Program-made: the position numbers and the translations under genes
NCBI GenBank assembly: GCA_963920705.1
Contig: OY987238.1
Coordinates: forward strand, 11,960,183-12,024,182
Reading direction: 5' to 3'
Length of the DNA stretch: 64,000 bases
From: Odiellus spinosus
Taxonomy: Eukaryota; Arthropoda; Arachnida; Opiliones; Phalangiidae
The notes under the pieces: generated by a model
Seen by the model: only the letters and a program-made list of their open reading frames with translations
Database searches by the model: none
Told to the model about the DNA's origin: nothing
Part shown: positions 14,444 through 36,430 of the stretch, one piece after another
How positions within the stretch are numbered: position 1 is the first letter of the stretch
How the letters are laid out: each line of letters starts with the position of its first letter

Positions 14444-15065
14444 ATGGAATTTAAAAATTGCGCCAAAAGGTCAGTGATAAGTTAGGGAATTTAAAAATTG
14501 CGCTTAAAGGTCAGTGATAAGTTAGGGAATTTAAAAATTGCGCCAAAAAGGTCAGTGATAAGTTAGGGAATTTAAAAATTGCGCCTAAAGGTCAGTGATA
14601 AGTTAGGGAATTTAAAAATTGCGCCAAAAAGGTCAGTGATAAATTAGGAAATTTAAAAATTGCGCCAGAAAGGTCAGGAAAAAGTCGCGGAAATTAAAAA
14701 TTGCGCCAAAAGGATCAGTGATAAGATAGGGAATTTAGAAATTGCGCCAAAAGGGTCAGTGATAAATTAGGAAATTTAAAAATTGCGCCAGAAAGGTCAG
14801 GAAAAAGTCGTGGAAATTAAAAATTGTTCCAAATTGTCACTGGAAAGTTGGGGAATTTCAAAATTGCGCCAAAAGATCAGGGAAAGGTCGTGGAAATTAA
14901 AAATTGCTCCAAAATGTCACTGATAAGTTAGGGTATTTAAAACCTACGACAAAAGGTCCACGAAACTAGATATTTCTGTATATGTAACTCGCGATGTCAC
15001 TGTCAGTCATTTGGTCAGTGAAAACTCTCAAAGATGGTCAAAGAAAACCTTTGAAATTCAGGGAA
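14444..15065 (+). repeat. minisatellite 2 (about 40-base unit)
   Basis: About a dozen tandem units of roughly 40 bases, each with GGTCAGTGATAAGTTAGGGA followed by ATTTAAAAATTGCGCC. Later units drift (GGAAAAAGTCGTGG). After about 14960 the array decays into a tail with GATGGTCAAAGAAAACC. The unit aligns with that of the array at 42068. Confidence 0.9.
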
Positions 15066-24609: not shown

Positions 24610-24840
24610 TAGCTTTAGATATGGTATTAATTGGGATACCATTATCTAAGGTGTCTCTGTTAAAAACCATCCATCCTCCAAGTTACTTTGTAACCTCCCC
24701 TCTTTGCATATATTTTGAATGAAATTCTTCTAATTTTTCACTATGCAACGGTGGTAAATTTTCTTTTTAACATATATCTTTTATCGCCTTTCTGAATTCT
24801 TACGTATTTAGAGATGCTGTTTGGTTAACCATCTTGTTTT

Positions 24841-24879
<39 letters not shown>

Positions 24880-25752
24880 ATCTTCCGTTTCTATCTTTCC
24901 ATTCGTTCTCTTGTCTCAGTCTCTTTAGCTCGTCTCACAGTGTTAAATTCGGTCAGCCTCTTCGAATACTCTCATAAAGATAAATTTAACCAACCAGTTA
25001 AAATGCTGATAATACCCTTCTACAAATTTTAATCCTGTTGAAAAATAATTAGGAAAAATTTTTATATGAGGTATGTTTTAAATTGTTTAAAATCTTAATT
25101 TTTAACATAACTATCGTAAATATGGGATTGTAAATGTGGCTGCAGTCTTGAAAGTAGAATACCTTGTTGGTTTAGTTTTTTAATATAAATATATGTTACT
25201 TATTTGATTGCAAAAGGGACTGGTAGATCCGAAAGTTCTCGAAAAACGTTTAAGAAATTTAATATTATGATTAATATATTTTGCGTAAAGGATTTAAATG
25301 ATAAAATTAAGTTTAAAATTTGTTATTTAATTATAAAACACAACCCTTCCGGATTATAGTACACATTGTTAACTCCCCTTTTACTACATTTATATTAATT
25401 TAAATTAATCATGGAGATTAAATAATTAAAAAACTTTTTTGTGGACTTTTCCACTATGTTATCTTGGTTGAAACTTGAAAACGACTCCAAAAAATTGTTT
25501 TTGAGGTTTAAGTATAAGTCTCATTCATTAAATTTGTTTAAATATTCCCATATATTTAATTGGAAGTCATTTTAATTATAACATTTATACATTATTATAA
25601 TTAAAAGTTAAATTTAATCAGTGACGCCGAATAATATTACTAATTATTATTTTGGTGAACCTGTTACTATCATTTTAAAATTTCGTTTTATGATCCACTA
25701 TAATTAATTCCATTAGAGTTTGCATCGTGCGCTAAGCTAGATTTCCATAGAG
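24610..25752. promoter_or_regulatory. upstream region of the Ihog-like gene, with (CT)n
   Basis: Contains a (CT)n run of about 17 units at 24844-24877 and pyrimidine-rich DNA after it. GAGA/CT tracts often mark arthropod promoters, but no transcription start can be placed from sequence. Both first coding exons are preceded by AG acceptors, so an untranslated leader exon probably lies upstream. Confidence 0.3.
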
Positions 25753-25807
25753 ATGGTTTTTAGAATAACTTTGCTTTTATCTGCTCTGCTTTCGTTGTCA
25801 ACTCAAG
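25753..25807 (+). CDS. ihog: alternative first coding exon 1a, Ihog-like (signal peptide)
   Basis: ATG at 25753 opens MVFRITLLLSALLSLSTQ, a textbook hydrophobic signal peptide. The exon then ends after one base of the next codon (G at 25807) at a GTGAAA donor. That phase 1 end is identical to the end of exon 1b (26225), so either exon can splice to exon 2 at 26636 and preserve the mature protein. Splicing 1a onto 1b would instead hit a stop after six codons, so the two look mutually exclusive in productive mRNA. An acceptor-like CCATAG precedes the ATG by two bases. Confidence 0.7.
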
Positions 25808-26105
25808 GTGAAATTAATTTTAGTGTAATTAAAAGTCGTTACGCTATGCATTCATTTAATGATGTTAAAAATAACGAATTTGGGATAAATATTTTAAGAG
25901 TTTTAACTTTAAATTTCTTCTCAAACTCGTAATTTAAAAATACCTCAAAATTCCTTAGGGCATATAATTTTATTTTCATTTTTTTAATATTTTATTTTTT
26001 TTTCTGGATAAAATTTGCATAAAATTATAATTTAATAGTATCATTTATTCCCATCTTAGCAAACGATTTTCATAATTATAATTTTCTTCTTTTCTATCTT
26101 TACAG

Positions 26106-29100
26106 CAGTGAATGAATGGCAATGAAGGCCCAAGATGACTGAAAACATGTTGGTGTCTTCGATAAGACCCATACTCTTTCAAATATCAATATGGTTATTT
26201 TACAGCCACGTCTGTACTGCCACAGGTAATTATCAATTAAAGGGGTAGTATCAAATAATTTTGGATACGTTTCTAACCTTGGAAATGTCAGGGTACAAAT
26301 TGGAAATGTCTGAGAGAACTTGGGAATGTCAGGGAAAACTTGGGAATGTCTGGGAGAACTTGGAAATGTTAGGGGAAACCTGGAAATGCTTTATTTGAAA
26401 TCAAGGAGCTTGAGTTTTGACTGACAGTCTAGTGACGTCATAGCATTGTCGTATTATAAATTTATCAAAAAGTTTGGGGATGATTTCTCTGGAAAGTAGG
26501 AAATATTTTGAATGACAAATTTTTTTCTTTATCATAATGGAACTTTCAAACTGTTTTTAACTCAATCTAAATTTCGACAATATCACTCGGGTAACAACTA
26601 TCCCATCATTTAAAATATTTATTCTCTATTTTTAGGTGATGTAGTGCTTAGGTTCAATAATGAACCTATAACGGTGATGGACAAACCAGGTAGTGGTCGA
26701 GCCGCGTTTAGGTGTTCCGCTGTTCCAGCTTTCGCTAGCATAGAGTGGTTACAAAATGGCCAACCAATCGTCGAAGACTCCGAAGGGATTTTTCGCATTC
26801 AAGACCAAAAGTTAACTATTAAATTGCCCAAAAAACAAGAAGAAAGTGGACCAGGAAGGCCGCAAGGTTTATCAAATAACTTGATTCACGTTGGTCTTTA
26901 TCTTCAATGTCTGGCTCGTTTTAAGGGCCAAGCTTTGATCAGTAAACCAGCCAAACTAATTGTAGCGGGTATGTTTTGATTTATTTTTATGTATTTTAAC
27001 TTTAATAGTATATTTACTCCACAATTTTTTTTTTTTTTTTTTGGCAATTCAGAGATCTCATCATTCGCTAATGAATCTGATATTTCTTTGAAAATTATTG
27101 CTGGAAATACCGCATTTATACCATGTAGACCGCCATACTCAGTCCCTGATGCTGTTACTGAATTTGAATTCAATGGCAACAAAATTGATAGAACAAGAGG
27201 TACAGTAGTAGTAGCATCGCTGTTTTTGGTTTCAAACGTTTGCATTATAATCATACATAAAAGGGTGTCCCAATTCTGATACAAGTCGCCACAATTTTGA
27301 TACGGGTTTGGCTCGTCGCGATTCTGATAATGGAGCACCCCAATTTGATCAAAGAGGGATTCAAATTGAATTTCTGTTCTTTTAGGTCGATATTTATTGC
27401 ATTCCTCTGGAAATCTTGAAATTCAGAACGCTGATATTAGTGACTCAGGAGAATATCACTGCATCGCCCATAATCCATTCTTAGAAGAACGTCGAAAAGC
27501 CAAACACAAAGTTCATATTCAAGTGATTGGTGAGTAAATTTATTTGAAATTGAATGTGGTGTTGGACATTCGGAAAAAAGTGTACGGGATTTTGTACGTC
27601 TTTTTCTATAATTTCTTGATTTCTTTACTGAAATTCCTCTAAATGATTTCGTGATAAGCATATAGTATTTTGTGTAAATGTCTGACCCCTCACAACTTAG
27701 TCTTGATTTTTTGACGAAGAAAAATGACCAAATATAATTATTATTTCTTAACTATTAGCTGATCAGAGGCCAGTTCCCGCTAGCTTTACCAATTTCCCCG
27801 AATCGACGAAAACAGCGGTGAAAGGTAGCAATGTTACGCTAGAATGTGGCGCTCAGGGTTTACCAATTCCAAATATTACGTGGCATAGACAAGAACATAG
27901 AATACCTGGACATAGACACTCTCAGATATCGGGTAATTTAACTTTACCTTGAAGTTTATATGCAACTTGATTGCCGAGCTCAATTCCAAACCTTTTTCCA
28001 GGAAATTTATTACTGTTTTCGGTACGTAAAAGTGACGAAGGTACTTACGTATGTACAGCAGATAATGGTCTCGGTAGTCCAGTTGCTGGTGAAATTTATT
28101 TAGAGGTTCAAGGTAAGAAATATTAATTGATGGATAAGCCCGTGGAATGAATTTATTAATAATGTTATTGTTTATTTCCTTTTTGACCCCAGAACCTCCG
28201 CAAATAGTTAAATCTTCACCAAATAAGAAAATTAACGAAGGGGAGAGTGTTACTTTCGATTGTATGACCAAAGGTCGACCAAAACCAGTCGTAATGTGGT
28301 TTCATAATGGTGCTAAAGTTCACGAACATGCGAAAATTACTATTAAAGGTACAGTATTTATTAAATTTTTACAAAACCATTTCTTTTCAACAAAATTTAA
28401 GGCTGAGCGAGTATAGAAATATTTCACTATCAGTTACCGGTACTAATCGAAATTAATTACCGAGTAGTTGGGCCTTGGATATTTTAAGATTAAATGGTTT
28501 CTTGGAATTTGCTCAACGAGTACTCGTTATAAATGCTCTGAATGTAACTAACGAATGCTAGTAAATTCCTCTATAAGTACCAAGAACAAGGCTTAATAGT
28601 TAGCAATTTGAGTACTCGTCAGGAAACGACCGAGTAACTCAATTCGAGTACTCGCTCAACCGAAAAAAAGTGTTAATTTGAATTTAACAAAATTATTCCT
28701 GTTATGTTCAAGAAAACAAATTAGTCTTGCATAATGTTAAACATCATCATGGAGGCATGTATCAATGTTTCGCCAGCAACGAGCTTGGCGCAATTTACGC
28801 AGCTAGTCATTTAATCGTGATTTCTCGCGGTAACTCCTCCAACTCGAGTTTACCCGACGAACCTCATCATCATCATAAAAGTAAACAGGATAAAGGCAAA
28901 GATGGAAAGAAAGGTAAAAGAAAAGGAGGTGAGAATAAAAATATTTTTATTTCAATTTAAGAATACAAATTTAATTTGTCTTTTTGATATCGTAGTTAAA
29001 ATGGTTCCACCAACCAGACCGGAAGTTAGTCGACTATCGGAAGATTCTGTAATGGTTCGTTGGGACGTACCGCCCAATGACGGTCTACCAATTCAATTCT

Positions 29101-31482
29101 TTAAAGTTCAATATCGCGAAGTTGGCGATTCTACAACCGATATTTGGAACACGATTGATGATGATATCGTTGCCTATATCAAGTCTTACGCCGTAAATGG
29201 ATTGAAAACTGGTATGTTACAAACTACAAATATATTTCCAGCCTGAACAATTTATAACTTAAAAGGATAATTGATAAAAACTTTCTTTATCGAGTTTTAA
29301 CAATTTTAACTTCATTTTCTTTTATTACGCAGGTGGTACATATAGGTTTAGAATAGCGGCTGTTTATTCAAACTATGACAACAAAGATGGTCCCAAATCT
29401 TCCAAATTCACTTTATACAAAGATCCACCTATGAAAAAACCGACTTACGGGCCTAATATAATTCGAGCCGTACCTACTAGCCCTTCGGCCATCACCCTCA
29501 CTTGGGACGTAAGTCTTTTCATTATTTAAAATTAATTTAACACTGAAATAGTAGAATTCAAACATTAAATGAATCTTCACTTTCCCATTTTCGCAGTATT
29601 TAGATATTGATGAAGTTCCTATCGATGGATTTTTCATTTATTATCGAGCGACTCATAACGCCGGAGATTACGCTAAAATAACAGTTCTCGGTTCTAATAC
29701 TCGATCGCATATAATTTCTCATTTACTTCCCGAAACTTCGTACGATATGAAAATGCAATGTTTCAACGTAGCTGGAACTTCAGATTTCTCCAAAATCTAC
29801 ATTAGCAAAACCAAACGTAAATATTCTTCTTAAACGATACTTAATTAATCTGATCTTTAATGTATTTCATCCTAATCAATTTAAATAAACTCAATGGTTT
29901 GAGAAAACTTTGTATTCTCCTTTTATTTTAGCTTCGGAGTACGATTCGAGCTTAAAAACTACAGTTTCGCCAAAATCGGAATCTAGCGAACAAAGTGAGA
30001 AAAGCTCCTCAACAACATACACTAATAAACTACTATACATTATACTCGGAGTGGCTTTAGCAGTCATGCTCATCGTTCTCATTGTCTTCTTATTTTTATG
30101 CGCCAAACATAAACGACGTCAAAGACGAGGTCAGTTTTAAATCTTTTTGTTGATTTGTCTTATTCGGGAAAACCTTGTTATAACGAAATAGCGCTTATAT
30201 AGGGGCTCCTACTCGTTCAGTATTTCTATTTGGAGTCACTAAAACGCCATAAAACTAACCTTTGGCCACAAAATTGACTGATTTTTCAATAAAACCCAAT
30301 AACTGGTTACAAATTTTAAAAGTTCCCTTCAGTTGAAATATCCTGATTTAAGCCAAGATAAAGAAGTTTAGAATTTGTTTTTACATAAATAAATTATTCT
30401 CTCTGTAAAAAGGTGCCAGTCCTTTGAATCGACTCGGAATTTGTCAGGGAAGGAAATGTTTTCCCCCCCCCAGAATCTCGTTATAACCAGGTTTTAATGT
30501 ATTTTGTCATGGATTCTAACCGGTATCGGTTACCGACAGTGAGATTTTACTGATATATTGGTTTAAAACAAATAGTTCTGAAAGGTTTTTAAAAGTTTTG
30601 ACTATTTCTTACGAACAGGAGATAGAGTGGTAGCTCAAAATACACCGTTGCCAAAAATAACGTCTAATGGACACGGTGGTTCTGAATTAAATGGGTACAA
30701 CGGTTCCAGACCAAGACCCAAAATTAATATATCCGTTAATCCATTGGCGGATATTGAAAATAATAAACAGAACGAAGTAAGTCCGATCAATTTTGTAGCT
30801 TTACAATTTTATTTAATGTTCCTTGGTCTTTTTTTTTATTTAAAGAGTTATCCGCAATATCAGGAAGTTCCGTCAAATAACAACGAAGTTATCTTATTAA
30901 ATAGTGCGAGAAATGAAAATCACGGCCGCGAACGTGGATTGAACGAAAACGAACAAGCTCAGCAACAACAAAGACTTGTTTTGGGTGAGTGTTAATTTTT
31001 CTTCAGTTTTTGCTTTTATTAAAATGTGGTTCATCGTAAAAGTGGAGCATGCTTTTAAAATGTTCGTAAAAATGTTAGAGGCTTGCGAATGTTTAGCATT
31101 GAATGTTGGGCAATATTGAGCACGATGTAGAGGGTAGAAAAAATTGAGCAGTATGTGTAGATGACAAAGATTGAGCAAGATGTATAGGATAGAAAAGATT
31201 GAGCCTTATTTAGAGGATAGAAAATATTGAGCACAATATAGAGGGTTAGTAAAGATTGACCAGGATGTGGAGAACAAAGATTGAGCAGAAGATAGAAAAT
31301 ATTGAGCCTTATTTGGAGGATAGGAAAAATTAAGCATGATTTAAACGCTTGTGAAAGTTGAGCATGATTTAAACACTTCAAATTAAGTGTCTTTAAATTA
31401 TTCAAAAACACACCTAAACGCACGAATATATTTTATAATTTAAGGCGAGAATGAGGGTGAAATCCAAGAAACGGCAACGTGA
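26106..31482 (+). CDS. ihog: Interference hedgehog (Ihog/Boi)-like Hedgehog co-receptor
   Basis: Single-pass cell-surface receptor of the Ihog/Boi/CDON/BOC family, which binds Hedgehog through FN3 domains and works with Patched. Exons read in phase: 26106-26225 (ATG 26135), 26636-26968, 27053-27199, 27386-27529, 27759-27932, 28002-28112, 28193-28348, 28713-28928, 28996-29211, 29333-29508, 29597-29816, 29932-30129, 30619-30776, 30846-30984, 31445-31482. The protein is 838 residues (826 with exon 1a). Domains: signal peptide 1-30; four Ig domains with cysteine pairs C57-C122, C166-C216, C268-C314 and C357-C404; a basic His/Lys linker (about 435-457); FN3-1 (about 462-557) and FN3-2 (about 560-660); Ser-rich stalk; transmembrane segment 695-718; cytoplasmic tail 719-838 with a Gln run. 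Four Ig plus two FN3 fits arthropod Ihog rather than vertebrate CDON/BOC (three FN3). A possible AATAAA is at 31581. Whether it is Ihog or Boi is undecided. Confidence 0.93.
26282..26392 (+). repeat. minisatellite 3 in intron 1
   Basis: About five units of around 21 bases with GGAAATGTCAGGG/GGGAATGTCTGGGAGAACTT. Lies between exon 1b and exon 2 of the receptor gene. Confidence 0.75.
28430..28660. repeat. palindromic GAGTACTC cluster in intron 7
   Basis: The palindrome GAGTACTC, extended by flanking bases, occurs at 28516-28527, 28610-28618 and 28645-28654, with related CCGAGTAGTT and CCGAGTAACTC nearby. Could be a degenerate foldback element. Confidence 0.55.
30163..30499. mobile_element. pogo/Tigger-like MITE, intron 12
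   Basis: GGGAAAACCTTGTTATAACG on the left and the complement of ACCTGGTTATAACGAGA on the right are typical of pogo-group ends. TA lies on both sides (30161-30162 and 30500-30501). About 337 bases, with a C run near 30464. Confidence 0.65.
31105..31375 (+). repeat. minisatellite 4 in last intron
   Basis: About eight loose units of around 33 bases, each with GATTGAGCA, a GATGTAGAGGA-like part, and TAGAAAA. Occupies most of the final intron of the receptor gene; its open frames on the - strand are periodic. Confidence 0.8.
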
Positions 31483-31589
31483 TAAAAACGTGTCAAATAT
31501 GTGCCTTAAAAAGTCTAAAATATATATAAACAGTGATGCTCAAAAACCTAAAAACATAAACTCTTCTTCAAACTTGAAAAAATAAAAGT

Positions 31590-32480
31590 GTGAAAATGAA
31601 GAATTTTGTTTGTGCCAAGGAGAGAAAATCAACGTTCGTAAAGCAAGGATAGTAGAAAACATTTATATTTAACTTATTCAACAACGCGCTTTTAAAAGAA
31701 AAAAACAATCATATTTTATTTTCATTTCCTTTTCCACGGTTTTCGCATAATTGTCATACAACATGTGCGATAACTTTTTATTAGATCTGCTTAAGAGTTT
31801 TTTTATAGAAGTACAAATTTATTTAAAATAATGATGGATGAAGTTAAAAAAAAGTTTTATGCATAAATTAAACTCTGAAGGGACTGGAAATTCTAGTGGG
31901 AATTAAAGAATTACCCGCTCGTTAGAGTTAATTAGTCTATTTCAGGTTTTGTTAGATTTTTCTTTAAAGGGATAGTTCTATGTGGAATAAGCATACATTT
32001 TCTTGATCTACAAAGTGTCTTCTACATTTTAAAATAAAGAAAATGTGCCGAAGAACATACGATGTCATCTAATGATGGATCTGAACCCCGCAATAAGATA
32101 CCAAGGTTTTACCAAGAAAGGATAGAAGTTACAGTGGGAATTCCTAAGGGTCACGGAATTGCAGGGTTCAATGTTGAATTATACATGGTAGTCGCTTGAA
32201 AACGTTATTTAGTGACGCAGATCATCAATAATGCCCCGGTTATATCCAACTTACCTTCCCAGAGTCCCTGAATCTCGAAAAATAACTCATAGTGGCCAAG
32301 TATCACTATCGTCTTCGATCTTACCAAACTCCATAACTGCGAGACAGTTTCATTTCTTGTCAGCTAGTAATACAAAAGTATCCGCCCCCTTTTTCTAAAA
32401 CCATCCTACAATGGGATTCTCGGAGACTTTCTTGGTTTTACCGATATATCTTTAACTTTAACGCAAACTAAAATAGTTTT
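31590..32480. other. convergent intergenic region
   Basis: Between the 3' ends of the receptor gene and PPOX. No exon recognised. Confidence 0.45.
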
Positions 32481-32953: not shown

Positions 32954-35520
32954 TTAACTATTTAAATTTTTAACATAATTTTCAGCTGCTACTTTAGCAA
33001 AATAGATACAATCGTTAACGCTGACTCCTTCGTAGGAGCAACCGAGTAACGTTAGGCACATTTCTTCGTTGCTAATTTCCTTTTTTATATTCGTTAAAAT
33101 AGAATGATGTCCGACTTTATATTGCGGAATGCAATTCTGAAAGATCGTAAATTGGTATGATATTAATAACATTTCATCTAAAACTATATTATTAAACTTA
33201 AAAGGGCTAATGAAGACAAAAAAATTATTTTGAATCAATTAAACGGTTCTAAAATATGCTTAGAGTCGAAACTCTGGCTTTTCTTATCCAGCTAATACCT
33301 TTTCAGACGAGACGTAATTAACCGCGGTTTACATAGCCTTCGCAGTTAGATAAACTTCGGTTAAATCGGCTAGTTACGCCTCATCTGAAAAGCGTATTAG
33401 GGTCGAGTTCCTGGTTTACTTATCTTATTAAACGGGGTATTTATTATTTAACACGTTCCTGGTCCTCGTTATCCCTTAGTTTAATTATATATTTACCCTC
33501 ATAATGTTAACTCGATATCTAGTAGGTTCTTGGCTGATATTTAGAATATTTCGAGTTCCTTCTAACGCTACTTCTAATAGTTTATCGGGAGATACTGTAT
33601 CGATAGATCCGAAAAGATCTTGGAACCAATGACCACCCATCATGACCTGAAGTAAAATTATCGTTAAAGAATAAAATATGAGGTAAATAAATAGATTTTT
33701 AACTTTAATCTTACAGTTAAGCGAGTTTTATCCGAATATTTGCCATCATGGGCTGGAAAACAACACGAATCAAATGTTATACCCAAAAGTTTGGAGTTTT
33801 GATTCGATGGTATTAGAAAACCAAATCCCTAAGTTAAAAAATAAAATTAGTCTAGAAATTTAAAGCTATATACAATAAAACCTCGTTATAACGAAATTCC
33901 ATTAGAGTTTATGGAAATGTTACGTTTTAAGCCACGATATTTTTGTTATAACTTTTTTCAGGTTGGACAAACAAATTTTGTTATAAGCGGTTTTTCGCCT
34001 TAACGAGGTTTTGCTGTACAAAATTACTTACTTCTTCTTTGAGTAATTTTCCTTTAAATTCTAAATTAACAACTGCTACGTGAACGGACGGAATAAACGA
34101 GAGATGTTTTCCGATCGTTGGGTGATGAGAACTAACAATTCTTGATAAACGCTTAGCTGGGATGCAAGAAAATACGTGATCAACTGAAGTGTTCGTGGCA
34201 TCGCCTTCAAAATGTACCTTAATTTAAAAAAAGTTAAACTGTAGTGAAGTTAATATAATTTTTAAGGATATAGAACATTACTAAAGCTTTCCCATCCTCG
34301 AAATGAATTTTATCGCAAGGTACGTTAGTTAAAATTTGAACTTTAGGATCTTCTTCTAAAACGGCGCTTAATCTTTCAGGTAACATTTGTAAACCATTTT
34401 TAAGTGACCACATAGCCCAGCGATCTTTTTTCGCTATAGTTGCTAAGTTGCTCTTCAAATACGTACCCAGAGGAATGTCTATAAAATGAATACGTTAATG
34501 GTTTAGTTTTCCTTTTAAGTAGACTTGCAGCCTGACTCTATTCAGGCCTCGTCAAATTGCTCTTGCGCCCCAAGCTCGTGAATTTAATCTGCAGATTTAC
34601 TTTTAATTTTAATTTATTCTAAACGATAAATTCGCAAGATTAATTTGACAAGGCTGACTCAAGACAAGTTGGAGGTCTACTTTTAAAATTTTATCCTTAG
34701 TTACCGGCGCCTTTTTTCAACTGTCCTTTAATAATGGAACCATGCTCTTGCTCGGCTTTAAAAATTCCACCGAGAAGAGATCGAACGCTAATTTGTTTGG
34801 AATCTCCAGCCACAATTCCCCGTACAACAGGATCAAAGATATAATCGGCAAGCTGCGAATTTTTTTTAGTAAATTATCATATTTTTATTATTTTCCCGTA
34901 ACTTTTTAATTTTCTTACTTCGGAACCAAATCTTCTTGTGATGAAAGAATGTACACTTTCATCTTCGACATGTTGTTTCTTTCCAAATAATTCTTTAATT
35001 CCATAATAAGCGAATGAATGTTTAAGAGGAGGAATAGTTTTAAACAAATCTTTCACTCCACTCGGTATTGAGACGAGATTATTGTTAATTAATATGAGAC
35101 GTTTTCTGGCAGCCGAATCAGTCATTTTAATTGGCAGAATGTCGTTGGCTAAGCCAAGTTCGTCAATCTATTTTTTTAATTTAATTAAATTACATTTTGC
35201 GAATCCTTCGCTTGTTATAATTGCAAATTTTACTTACTAAGGATAATGAATTGAATCCTGATTGGCCAAAGACTCTCATACTTTTTGGCCCATGTTCGTA
35301 AACTGTACCGTCAGGAAAACGGCTCGATTGAAGCCATCCTCCTAATGTTGTACTCTTTTCAACTAAAATAACCTACAATTGAATTTATTGAATATTAATC
35401 AAAACATCAAATTCAATATTAATAACGTACTTTTTTAATTGCGTCTTTTCCAAATTTTGATAAATAATAAGCGCAAGAAAGCCCAGTAATTCCACCTCCC
35501 AATACAATTATGTTAGCCAT
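32954..35520 (-). CDS. PPOX: protoporphyrinogen oxidase
   Basis: FAD flavoenzyme of the inner mitochondrial membrane that oxidises protoporphyrinogen IX to protoporphyrin IX, the penultimate step of haem synthesis. Nine exons read in phase on the - strand: 35520-35431, 35372-35238, 35167-34919, 34852-34705, 34478-34282, 34217-34032, 33828-33715, 33646-33497, 33136-32954 (stop). They encode 483 residues, close to the animal norm of about 477. Visible features: N-terminal dinucleotide fold with GGGITG at residues 8-13 and acidic E35 at the end of the second strand; GGWLQSSR and EHGPKSMR near 41-61; NCIPQY at 424-429; and the C-terminal FAD-contact segment SYEGVSVNDC. As usual in the family there is no cleavable presequence. 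A splice acceptor at 35547/35546 leaves a 25-base leader in front of the ATG. Introns hold several MITEs. Confidence 0.97.
33293..33399. mobile_element. MITE family H, copy 2 (PPOX intron 8)
   Basis: About 107 bases; TAATACCTTTTCAGACGAGA on the left pairs over about 30 bases with the complementary right end. TTCAGACGA is shared with H1 at 39363. TA flanks both ends. Confidence 0.75.
33873..34016. mobile_element. pogo/Tigger-like MITE (PPOX intron 6)
   Basis: 144 bases between TA dinucleotides (33871-33872, 34017-34018). Ends CAATAAAACCTCGTTATAAC and the complement of AACGAGGTTTTGCTG, the typical pogo-group terminus. It makes up most of this 203-base intron. Confidence 0.85.
34513..34688. mobile_element. 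inverted-repeat element M (PPOX intron 4)
   Basis: Imperfect ends of about 45 bases: TTTTAAGTAGACTTGCAGCC on the left against the complement of GGTCTACTTTTAAAA on the right, with GTCAAATT/AATTTGAC further in. Single copy in the window. Confidence 0.65.
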
Positions 35521-35544
35521 TTTTACGGAGATTCAAGATCTTCA

Positions 35545-35652
35545 GCTAAAAGAATAAAAAACAATGTATATTTGTTAAGATATTATAAAACAAGTCTTAG
35601 CTTGAATAGCCATTTTAATTTTAAAAGCTCATTAATAAACTATAAGCTCAAA
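35545..35652 (-). promoter_or_regulatory. GSKIP-PPOX intercistronic gap
   Basis: Only 132 bases separate the GSKIP stop from the PPOX ATG. The gap holds a variant ATTAAA at 35619-35614 and a pyrimidine-rich TTTTTTATTCTTTTAG acceptor 25 bases before the ATG. No obvious separate promoter is visible. Confidence 0.5.
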
Positions 35653-36033
35653 TTAAAAACTACACCTACATGTTAAATCCTTTAATTTTTGAAGTTTTTC
35701 ACAAAGTGCATTCCCAAATGCGTGGTTATAAGCGGGACTACACTTAGAGAGTAGAGAGTAAATTGTCTCAAAGCATTTCTCTTCGTCAGAAACATTATTG
35801 GGAACTTTAAGGCAAAAACCATTAGTCGTCATTTCCACGCGTAGCTCGTTATTTTCTAGCGTCTTTATATTTAACAAAACTGAAAGATCTTCCTCGTAAT
35901 TTTGAGACTGATCTATTTCAATTTCTTTTACGGCAAAGCCAATATCTTTAATAATTCCGTTGGCTTCTAAAAGTAGCCATTCCAAAGAATTTTCGATACC
36001 TTTATCGAGTTCATCCATATGAATTAATTTCAA
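35653..36033 (-). CDS. GSKIP: GSK3B-interacting protein homologue
   Basis: Small cytosolic scaffold; in mammals it binds GSK3 through a conserved C-terminal segment and the PKA regulatory subunit through an amphipathic helix. The intronless frame gives 126 residues (human about 139). The helix LLEANGIIKDIGFAVKEIEI (residues 21-40) lies where the family binds PKA. The GSK3-interaction segment at residues 89-118 contains ETIYSLLSKCSPAYNHAFGN followed by ALCEKLQKLK, the most diagnostic part. The start at 36033 is the first ATG of the frame; a second ATG at codon 6 is possible. The last eight residues (DLTCRCSF) are not typical, and a GT after TGTAG could be a splice donor changing the very end. 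Upstream lies a likely shared promoter. Confidence 0.92.
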   Translation of the reverse strand: MKLIHMDELDKGIENSLEWLLLEANGIIKDIGFAVKEIEIDQSQNYEEDLSVLLNIKTLENNELRVEMTTNGFCLKVPNNVSDEEKCFETIYSLLSKCSPAYNHAFGNALCEKLQKLKDLTCRCSF

Positions 36034-36430
36034 TTTAACTAAACATAATCCGAAAGGGTCATGGGGTTATAGAGATATAATTTATTAACGAAAATTTCTC
36101 TAAACATCAGCTTAAAATTACATATTAATCACTTACGGAAATGCTATTTTATATTATGACGAAGTTTTTTTAATATTTCATTACTTTTAAATTAATGGAT
36201 CTTATCAAATTATTTCGAGTGGATTGATAAACGGATACCGCACATGTTGTAGATGAGGTTAAAGGTTATTCCACCAGATGGCAAACTCCAGCAGACGAAA
36301 ATTTTCCGTAACCGTTTCTTTCTTTTTTGGCGCTCGAAAATCGCGGCCGCACATTGTGGAGTGGATCTTGTCATTGTTTCTCAACTTTAAAATATTAATC
36401 TGCAATGTATTTAATCAGTTAAAAAGGTAT
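36034..36430. promoter_or_regulatory. probable bidirectional promoter
   Basis: Region between GSKIP (leftward) and a rightward leader exon. The GC-richer patch about 36270-36390 contains CCAGATGGCAAACTCCAGC, a NotI site (GCGGCCGC) and GGCGCTCGAAAATCGC. No TATA box is evident. A donor AAAAAG|GTATGT ends a putative + strand leader exon at 36426. Confidence 0.5.

Follow-up and report, generated by a model that had tools for sequence, protein, structure and literature searches.

Two candidate leader exons ahead of one predicted mature receptor in an Ihog-like gene of Odiellus spinosus

The window is a stretch of 64,000 nucleotides from Odiellus spinosus (Opiliones, Phalangiidae), positions 11,960,183 to 12,024,182 of contig OY987238.1 in assembly GCA_963920705.1, and positions below are counted from its first letter. 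On its forward strand, 26636..30984 holds a gene whose sequence supports its assignment as an Ihog-like Hedgehog co-receptor. Thirteen exons with GT-AG borders lie in this interval and, with the split Gly codon, keep 796 residues open behind either of two leader exons, 1a and 1b (Table 1). Pfam placed Ig_3 on three stretches and fn3 on two, both over their cut-offs, which gives the tandem Ig and then FNIII layout of Ihog, CDON and BOC; a fourth Ig-type unit is suggested by a reading of exon 2. A single transmembrane segment (LLYIILGVALAVMLIVLIVFLFLC), recognised by reading only, is followed by basic residues in the exon at 29932-30129. The stretch that connects the last Ig domain to FN1 (28850-28928), at an exon end, contains many His and Lys residues (PHHHHKSKQDKGKDGKKGKRKG) and may be an extra heparin contact. 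An imperfect 28/55-bp tandem repeat occupies 31115-31287, in the intron behind the exon ending at 30984.

Table 1. Coordinates of the exons, start codons, upstream frames and donor candidate discussed in the text
Feature	Position	Strand	Details
Candidate non-coding exon, 3' end	25065..25070	+	donor GAG|GTATGT, 10.6; could be joined to 26106 with exon 1a skipped; a lead only
Exon 1a, coding part	25753..25807	+	MVFRITLLLSALLSLSTQ plus first Gly base; frame and phase
Exon 1b	26106..26225	+	acceptor TTTCTATCTTTACAG|C; leader MTENMLVSSIRPILFQISIWLFYSHVCTAT plus first Gly base
Upstream frame MNGNEGPR, then stop	26112..26138	+	8 codons; stop at 26136-26138 overlaps the ATG at 26135
Upstream frame MAMKAQDD, then stop	26116..26142	+	also entered at 26122
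Exon 1b start codon of the preliminary description	26135..26137	+	context caagATGA
Second exon 1b start codon, in frame	26147..26149	+	context aaacATGT
Exon 2, first common exon	26636..26968	+	phase 1 entry; mature start DVVLRF; acceptor 10.8 (in training set)
Twelve more common exons	27053..30984	+	Ig domains, two FNIII, transmembrane segment, tail; GT-AG borders, open frame, Pfam
Probable last exon	31445..31482	+	ends GENEGEIQETAT, then stop; acceptor 7.0 and phase; one among several candidate acceptors

At E <= 0.001 the whole 796-residue protein matched 262 different PDB sequences; among the best 60 of these 262, Robo2 led in total bits and Ihog followed further down at 139.6 bits, with Robo2, Dscam, contactins and others outranking Ihog through summed Ig matches. 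Because of this ranking, the FNIII pair was searched alone. Its best solved-structure match was the FN1-FN2 pair of Drosophila Ihog (CG9211; PDB 2ibb/2ibg), in an alignment that took in residues 3-200 of 203 and scored 143 bits. Below it came two titin chains (107.8 and 88.6 as summed bits, with no single stretch above the cut-off), then Ihog FN1 alone, Cdon 3d1m (77.8) and Boc 3n1g (73.8), and Dscam (46.5) was last among the nine matches. In the 443-Mb genome (286 contigs), 38 candidates for the FNIII pair were scored and three matched at E <= 0.001, all three being exons of this gene; a second FN1-FN2 locus was therefore not found genome-wide at that threshold, which divergent paralogs could escape. 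The leader region 25741-26240 likewise had no further copy in the genome (one match only), and since neither a second locus nor a copy was found, no splice junction can be read from a paralog or a processed copy. Against bacterial and archaeal contigs, 395 receptor residues gave 39 pattern matches and no confirmed one, as expected for such genomes.

Exons 1a and 1b share a phase and join one common exon: 1a has 55 nt and 1b 91 nt from the ATG at 26135, each length being 1 modulo 3, and each reads GDVVLRF into exon 2. Signal-peptide cleavage was scored with the classical eukaryotic weight matrix (columns sum to 161), for which the usual cut-off is 3.5. Exon 1a scored 11.4 at TQG^DV and 1b 3.8 at ATG^DV, and the second-best site in 1b (CTA^TG) scored 2.4; the first ~415 residues of the receptor body reached at most 2.6. 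By this prediction the 1a leader is excellent and the 1b leader marginal, barely over the cut-off. The predicted cut falls at one bond for both, G^DVVLRF, after the split Gly, and the mature receptor is predicted to be identical from either. The preliminary description had presented 25753-25807 and 26135-26225 as two mutually exclusive exons, each with its own hydrophobic leader ending one base into Gly, in an Ihog-like receptor gene. The leaders agree with the matrix scores, the frames into exon 2 hold, and two leader exons, one mature receptor and the Ihog-like identity stand by sequence; mutual exclusion is drawn from the reading frames alone.

The rarity of such exons was gauged against 20 stretches of 10 kb spread along the contig, together with the window except for 25001-32400, on both strands (513,200 strand-bases), the unit being an ATG with 10-60 codons, a phase-1 donor of at least 6.0 and a cleavage score of at least 3.8. 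These cut-offs were set after 1a and 1b had been seen, so the rates are guides and not p-values. The background held one leader-plus-donor unit at a cleavage score of at least 3.8, two at at least 3.5 and none at at least 5, compared with two within 0.9 kb here, and at these cut-offs neither exon has the appearance of a chance find. First-order Markov sequence (1,064,000 bases) held eight units at at least 3.8, four at at least 7 and none at at least 10. A looser test for hydrophobicity (9-residue mean of at least 2.0, donor of at least 6) found 14 cases in 513,200 strand-bases, or 0.027 per kb, and two in the last 0.9 kb ahead of exon 2; over the whole 26.6 kb before exon 2 it found three donors (3910, 25807 and 26225) against ~0.7 expected. 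Exon 1a was lost when the donor had to reach at least 6.4, and 1b when the 9-residue hydrophobicity had to reach at least 2.2. With the looser tests each exon taken singly becomes less convincing, an effect that is smaller for a pair this near to exon 2.

Exon 1a might be the only one that makes the receptor, with 1b rarely used or a relic and its leader-like frame fortuitous. The far stronger signal peptide of 1a (11.4 versus 3.8), the upstream ATGs that could lower translation from 1b and the failure of 1b in the hydrophobicity test at at least 2.2 all speak for this, but 1b combines a strong acceptor, a good donor, the right phase and a passing leader, and triples of acceptor, leader and donor like that of 1b numbered zero in the 513,200 strand-bases; we regard this account as unlikely. 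The converse, that 1b alone is used, reached from an upstream non-coding exon, and that 1a is a chance intronic frame, draws on the better donor and strong acceptor of 1b and on the loss of 1a at a donor cut-off of 6.4. It seems to us slightly less likely still, given that a cleavage score like that of 1a with a donor of at least 6.0 occurred neither in the 513,200 background strand-bases nor in the 1,064,000 simulated bases.

Splice sites were scored with a matrix trained on this gene's own 13 exon borders. Exon 1b has an acceptor of 9.0 at 26106 and a donor (CAG|GTAATT) of 8.2; the donor of 1a (AAG|GTGAAA) scored 6.1, compared with a range of 6.4-10.8 for the trained donors and 4.3-9.3 when each was left out in turn, in which case three of the 13 true donors fell below 6.1. 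Under the same leave-one-out scoring, true acceptors of the gene reached down to -1.1. Among the 15 AG sites in 25300-25753 the best were 25513 (6.5) and 25360 (5.1), background acceptor-like sites of at least 6.5 occur at 1.45 per kb, and no AG lying up to 40 nt from the 1a ATG scored above 1.2. Since the acceptor at 26106 is strong, 1b should be an internal exon preceded by a non-coding one; since no acceptor above background lies ahead of 1a, 1a more likely starts the transcript, and it is probably a transcription-start exon. An internal position for 1a is disfavoured, although the sites at 25513 and 25360 make its role as a start exon no more than probable. A start of 1b by a splice right before the ATG at 26135 was also tried and rejected (acceptor -4.7). 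An imperfect 20/40-bp tandem repeat (CTTGGAAATGTCTGGGAGAA) lies at 26278-26388, shortly past the 1b donor, in the intron between 1b and exon 2.

These sites bear on two further arrangements. Were 1a and 1b both internal and joined alternatively to a common non-coding exon upstream, as the phrase 'mutually exclusive' in the preliminary description suggests, 25513 could serve 1a as 26106 serves 1b; yet sites as good as 25513 are found at the background rate given above, the 1a ATG is 240 nt further on, and we give this arrangement very little weight. Consecutive use in one transcript, 1a being a regulatory upstream frame and 1b providing the receptor, is compatible with the usable splice sites that flank the 298-nt intron between them: spliced to 26106, 1a runs through six codons (AVNEWQ) to a TGA whose last base is 26125, 9 bases ahead of 26135. 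Such an upstream frame, however, needs no excellent signal peptide in the phase of exon 2 with cleavage at the junction, and we hold this arrangement to be quite improbable. The stop after six codons had been noted in the preliminary description, and the frames, when rechecked, gave the same result. Its broader proposal of a promoter- or splice-controlled choice of leader is narrowed: two promoters are favoured, with an acceptor of 9.0 on 1b and none above background on 1a, and a splicing choice between sister exons less so.

Three ATGs fall in the 29 nt before 26135, compared with 0.32 expected from the background frequency, and the 5' untranslated part of exon 1b is 29 nt to the ATG at 26135 or 41 nt to that at 26147. 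The latter codon is in frame with 26135 and lies past the stops (26138 and 26142) of the frames of all three upstream ATGs; it would give a leader of 26 residues, none of them acidic, and it fits the insect start-context consensus better than 26135 does. We think that 26147 is the likelier main start of 1b. The ATGs at 26112, 26116 and 26122 do open short overlapping frames, as had been described, but the argument built on them for the level of translation is weaker than was held, since 26147 is in frame and downstream of their stops and the upstream frames may thus matter less. Before 1a, the sole ATG within 25500-25752 is at 25690 and opens five codons.

Upstream of 1a, the donor ending the candidate non-coding exon in Table 1 is the only forward-strand donor of at least 10.5 in 1-25752, with ~1.4 expected at 0.053 per kb. 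Core-promoter motifs in 24700-25760 were limited to one TCAGTY, at 24916 (background 0.37 per kb), and two copies of TATAAA, at 25184 and 25332 (0.9 per kb), so that the motifs tried near 1a do not exceed background. RNA families gave no match at the gathering threshold. A six-frame Pfam scan of 1-25001, in pieces split at 15,000, gave no match at E <= 0.01, which leaves room for distal non-coding exons; the scan is blind to non-coding and short coding exons, and the same method found the single-exon GSKIP domain downstream.

A leader-like frame (MKFIPPLIISIVGLLGVLGKGEG) with phase-1 donors at 2441 and 2477 lies at 2372-2477, 24 kb upstream, and is possibly a distal leader, part of another gene or a product of chance. 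Such a distal leader, for example 2372-2441, might be the true start or a third alternative one: joined to exon 2, the frame would be cleaved with scores of 5.6 (VLG^KG) and 4.7 (GEG^GD), and 1-25001 is free of Pfam matches. However, both donors (4.1 and 5.7) are weak and lie 24 kb off, and loose cut-offs by themselves lead one to expect ~2 candidates in 26.6 kb (0.076 per kb), where five donors were seen; the chance that this frame is a start of the receptor appears slim.

The account that we consider somewhat probable is that of two promoters, two leaders and one mature receptor, that is, an Ihog-like gene with two alternative 5' ends. It is favoured because the joins of 1a and of 1b to exon 2 are open and in frame and a join of 1a to 1b is closed, and it builds on the frames, splice signals, leader predictions and rarity observed in the window; use of both exons is what we infer from these. 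A proximal promoter 5' of 25753 would produce transcripts that begin in 1a, skip 1b and join exon 2. A promoter farther upstream would produce a non-coding first exon, for which the donor at 25070 is a candidate, spliced over 1a into 1b and then to exon 2. Either leader would be removed at the same G^D bond to give the same mature receptor, and what could vary is the place and time of transcription and the translation and targeting of each mRNA. Promoter choice together with skipping of 1b is likelier than a choice between sister exons. Against the account of two promoters stand the weak 1a donor, the site at 25513, the low scores of some true acceptors, the marginal 1b leader, the promoter motifs at background level near 1a and the post hoc cut-offs. 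A more specific proposal, that one locus has two output levels, with a strong 1a leader, a weak 1b leader behind three ATGs and the product of 1a-1b splicing acting as an 'off' form, the amount of receptor thereby being tuned and the receptor unchanged, is tentative and seems unlikely to us; in it, the ATG at 25690 precedes 1a only if the 5' untranslated region of 1a extends that far.

As either leader should yield the same mature protein, the locus is of interest for its regulation. Flies split the Hedgehog co-receptor between two paralogs, ihog and boi; should both starts be in use, a single gene here could do the work of the two, with the co-receptor level controlled separately from tissue to tissue. 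The alternative first exons of Ptch1 alter the N-terminus of the protein, in contrast to the present gene, where by prediction only the removed leader changes. Ptch1 resembles it in encoding a Hedgehog receptor from multiple first exons (1, 1A, 1B and 1C), which PMC3449132 describes as tissue-specific and capable of modulating signalling. The mouse IgLON genes Lsamp, Ntm and Opcml have promoters 1a and 1b with alternative signal peptides, and PMC5288359 describes Ig-domain surface proteins with two 5' regions and, per its authors, identical processed N-termini. They differ in being vertebrate genes with a GPI-anchor site and measured expression, the present one being an Ihog-like transmembrane receptor known from sequence, and in that the IgLON exon 1b is partly common to both forms (PMC5288359), whereas the present 1b looks like an internal exon. 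Introns of phase 1 near signal-peptide cleavage sites are a known pattern (PMC1626468), from which the two junctions here, both phase 1 at the predicted cleavage site, do not differ, and because the pattern is common the shared split Gly codon is ordinary. Among the open-licence PMC papers listed for ihog and brother of ihog, nothing pointed to twin leaders in this family. The twin-leader layout is already known and the new part would be its presence in an Ihog-type gene; if the account of two promoters is true, it adds an Ihog-type Hedgehog component to the known twin-leader genes.

Downstream of the gene, on the minus strand, 35653-36066 holds a frame with a GSKIP domain (Pfam GSKIP_dom, E 1.1e-20), and frames in 33000-36066 on the same strand resemble protoporphyrinogen oxidase by eye, Pfam DAO being under its cut-off. 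TTAGG arrays, which suit an arthropod but are not specific to any one order, are very abundant genome-wide, with 7,014 forward and 2,583 reverse 30-mer matches, and the places listed scatter along contig C1.
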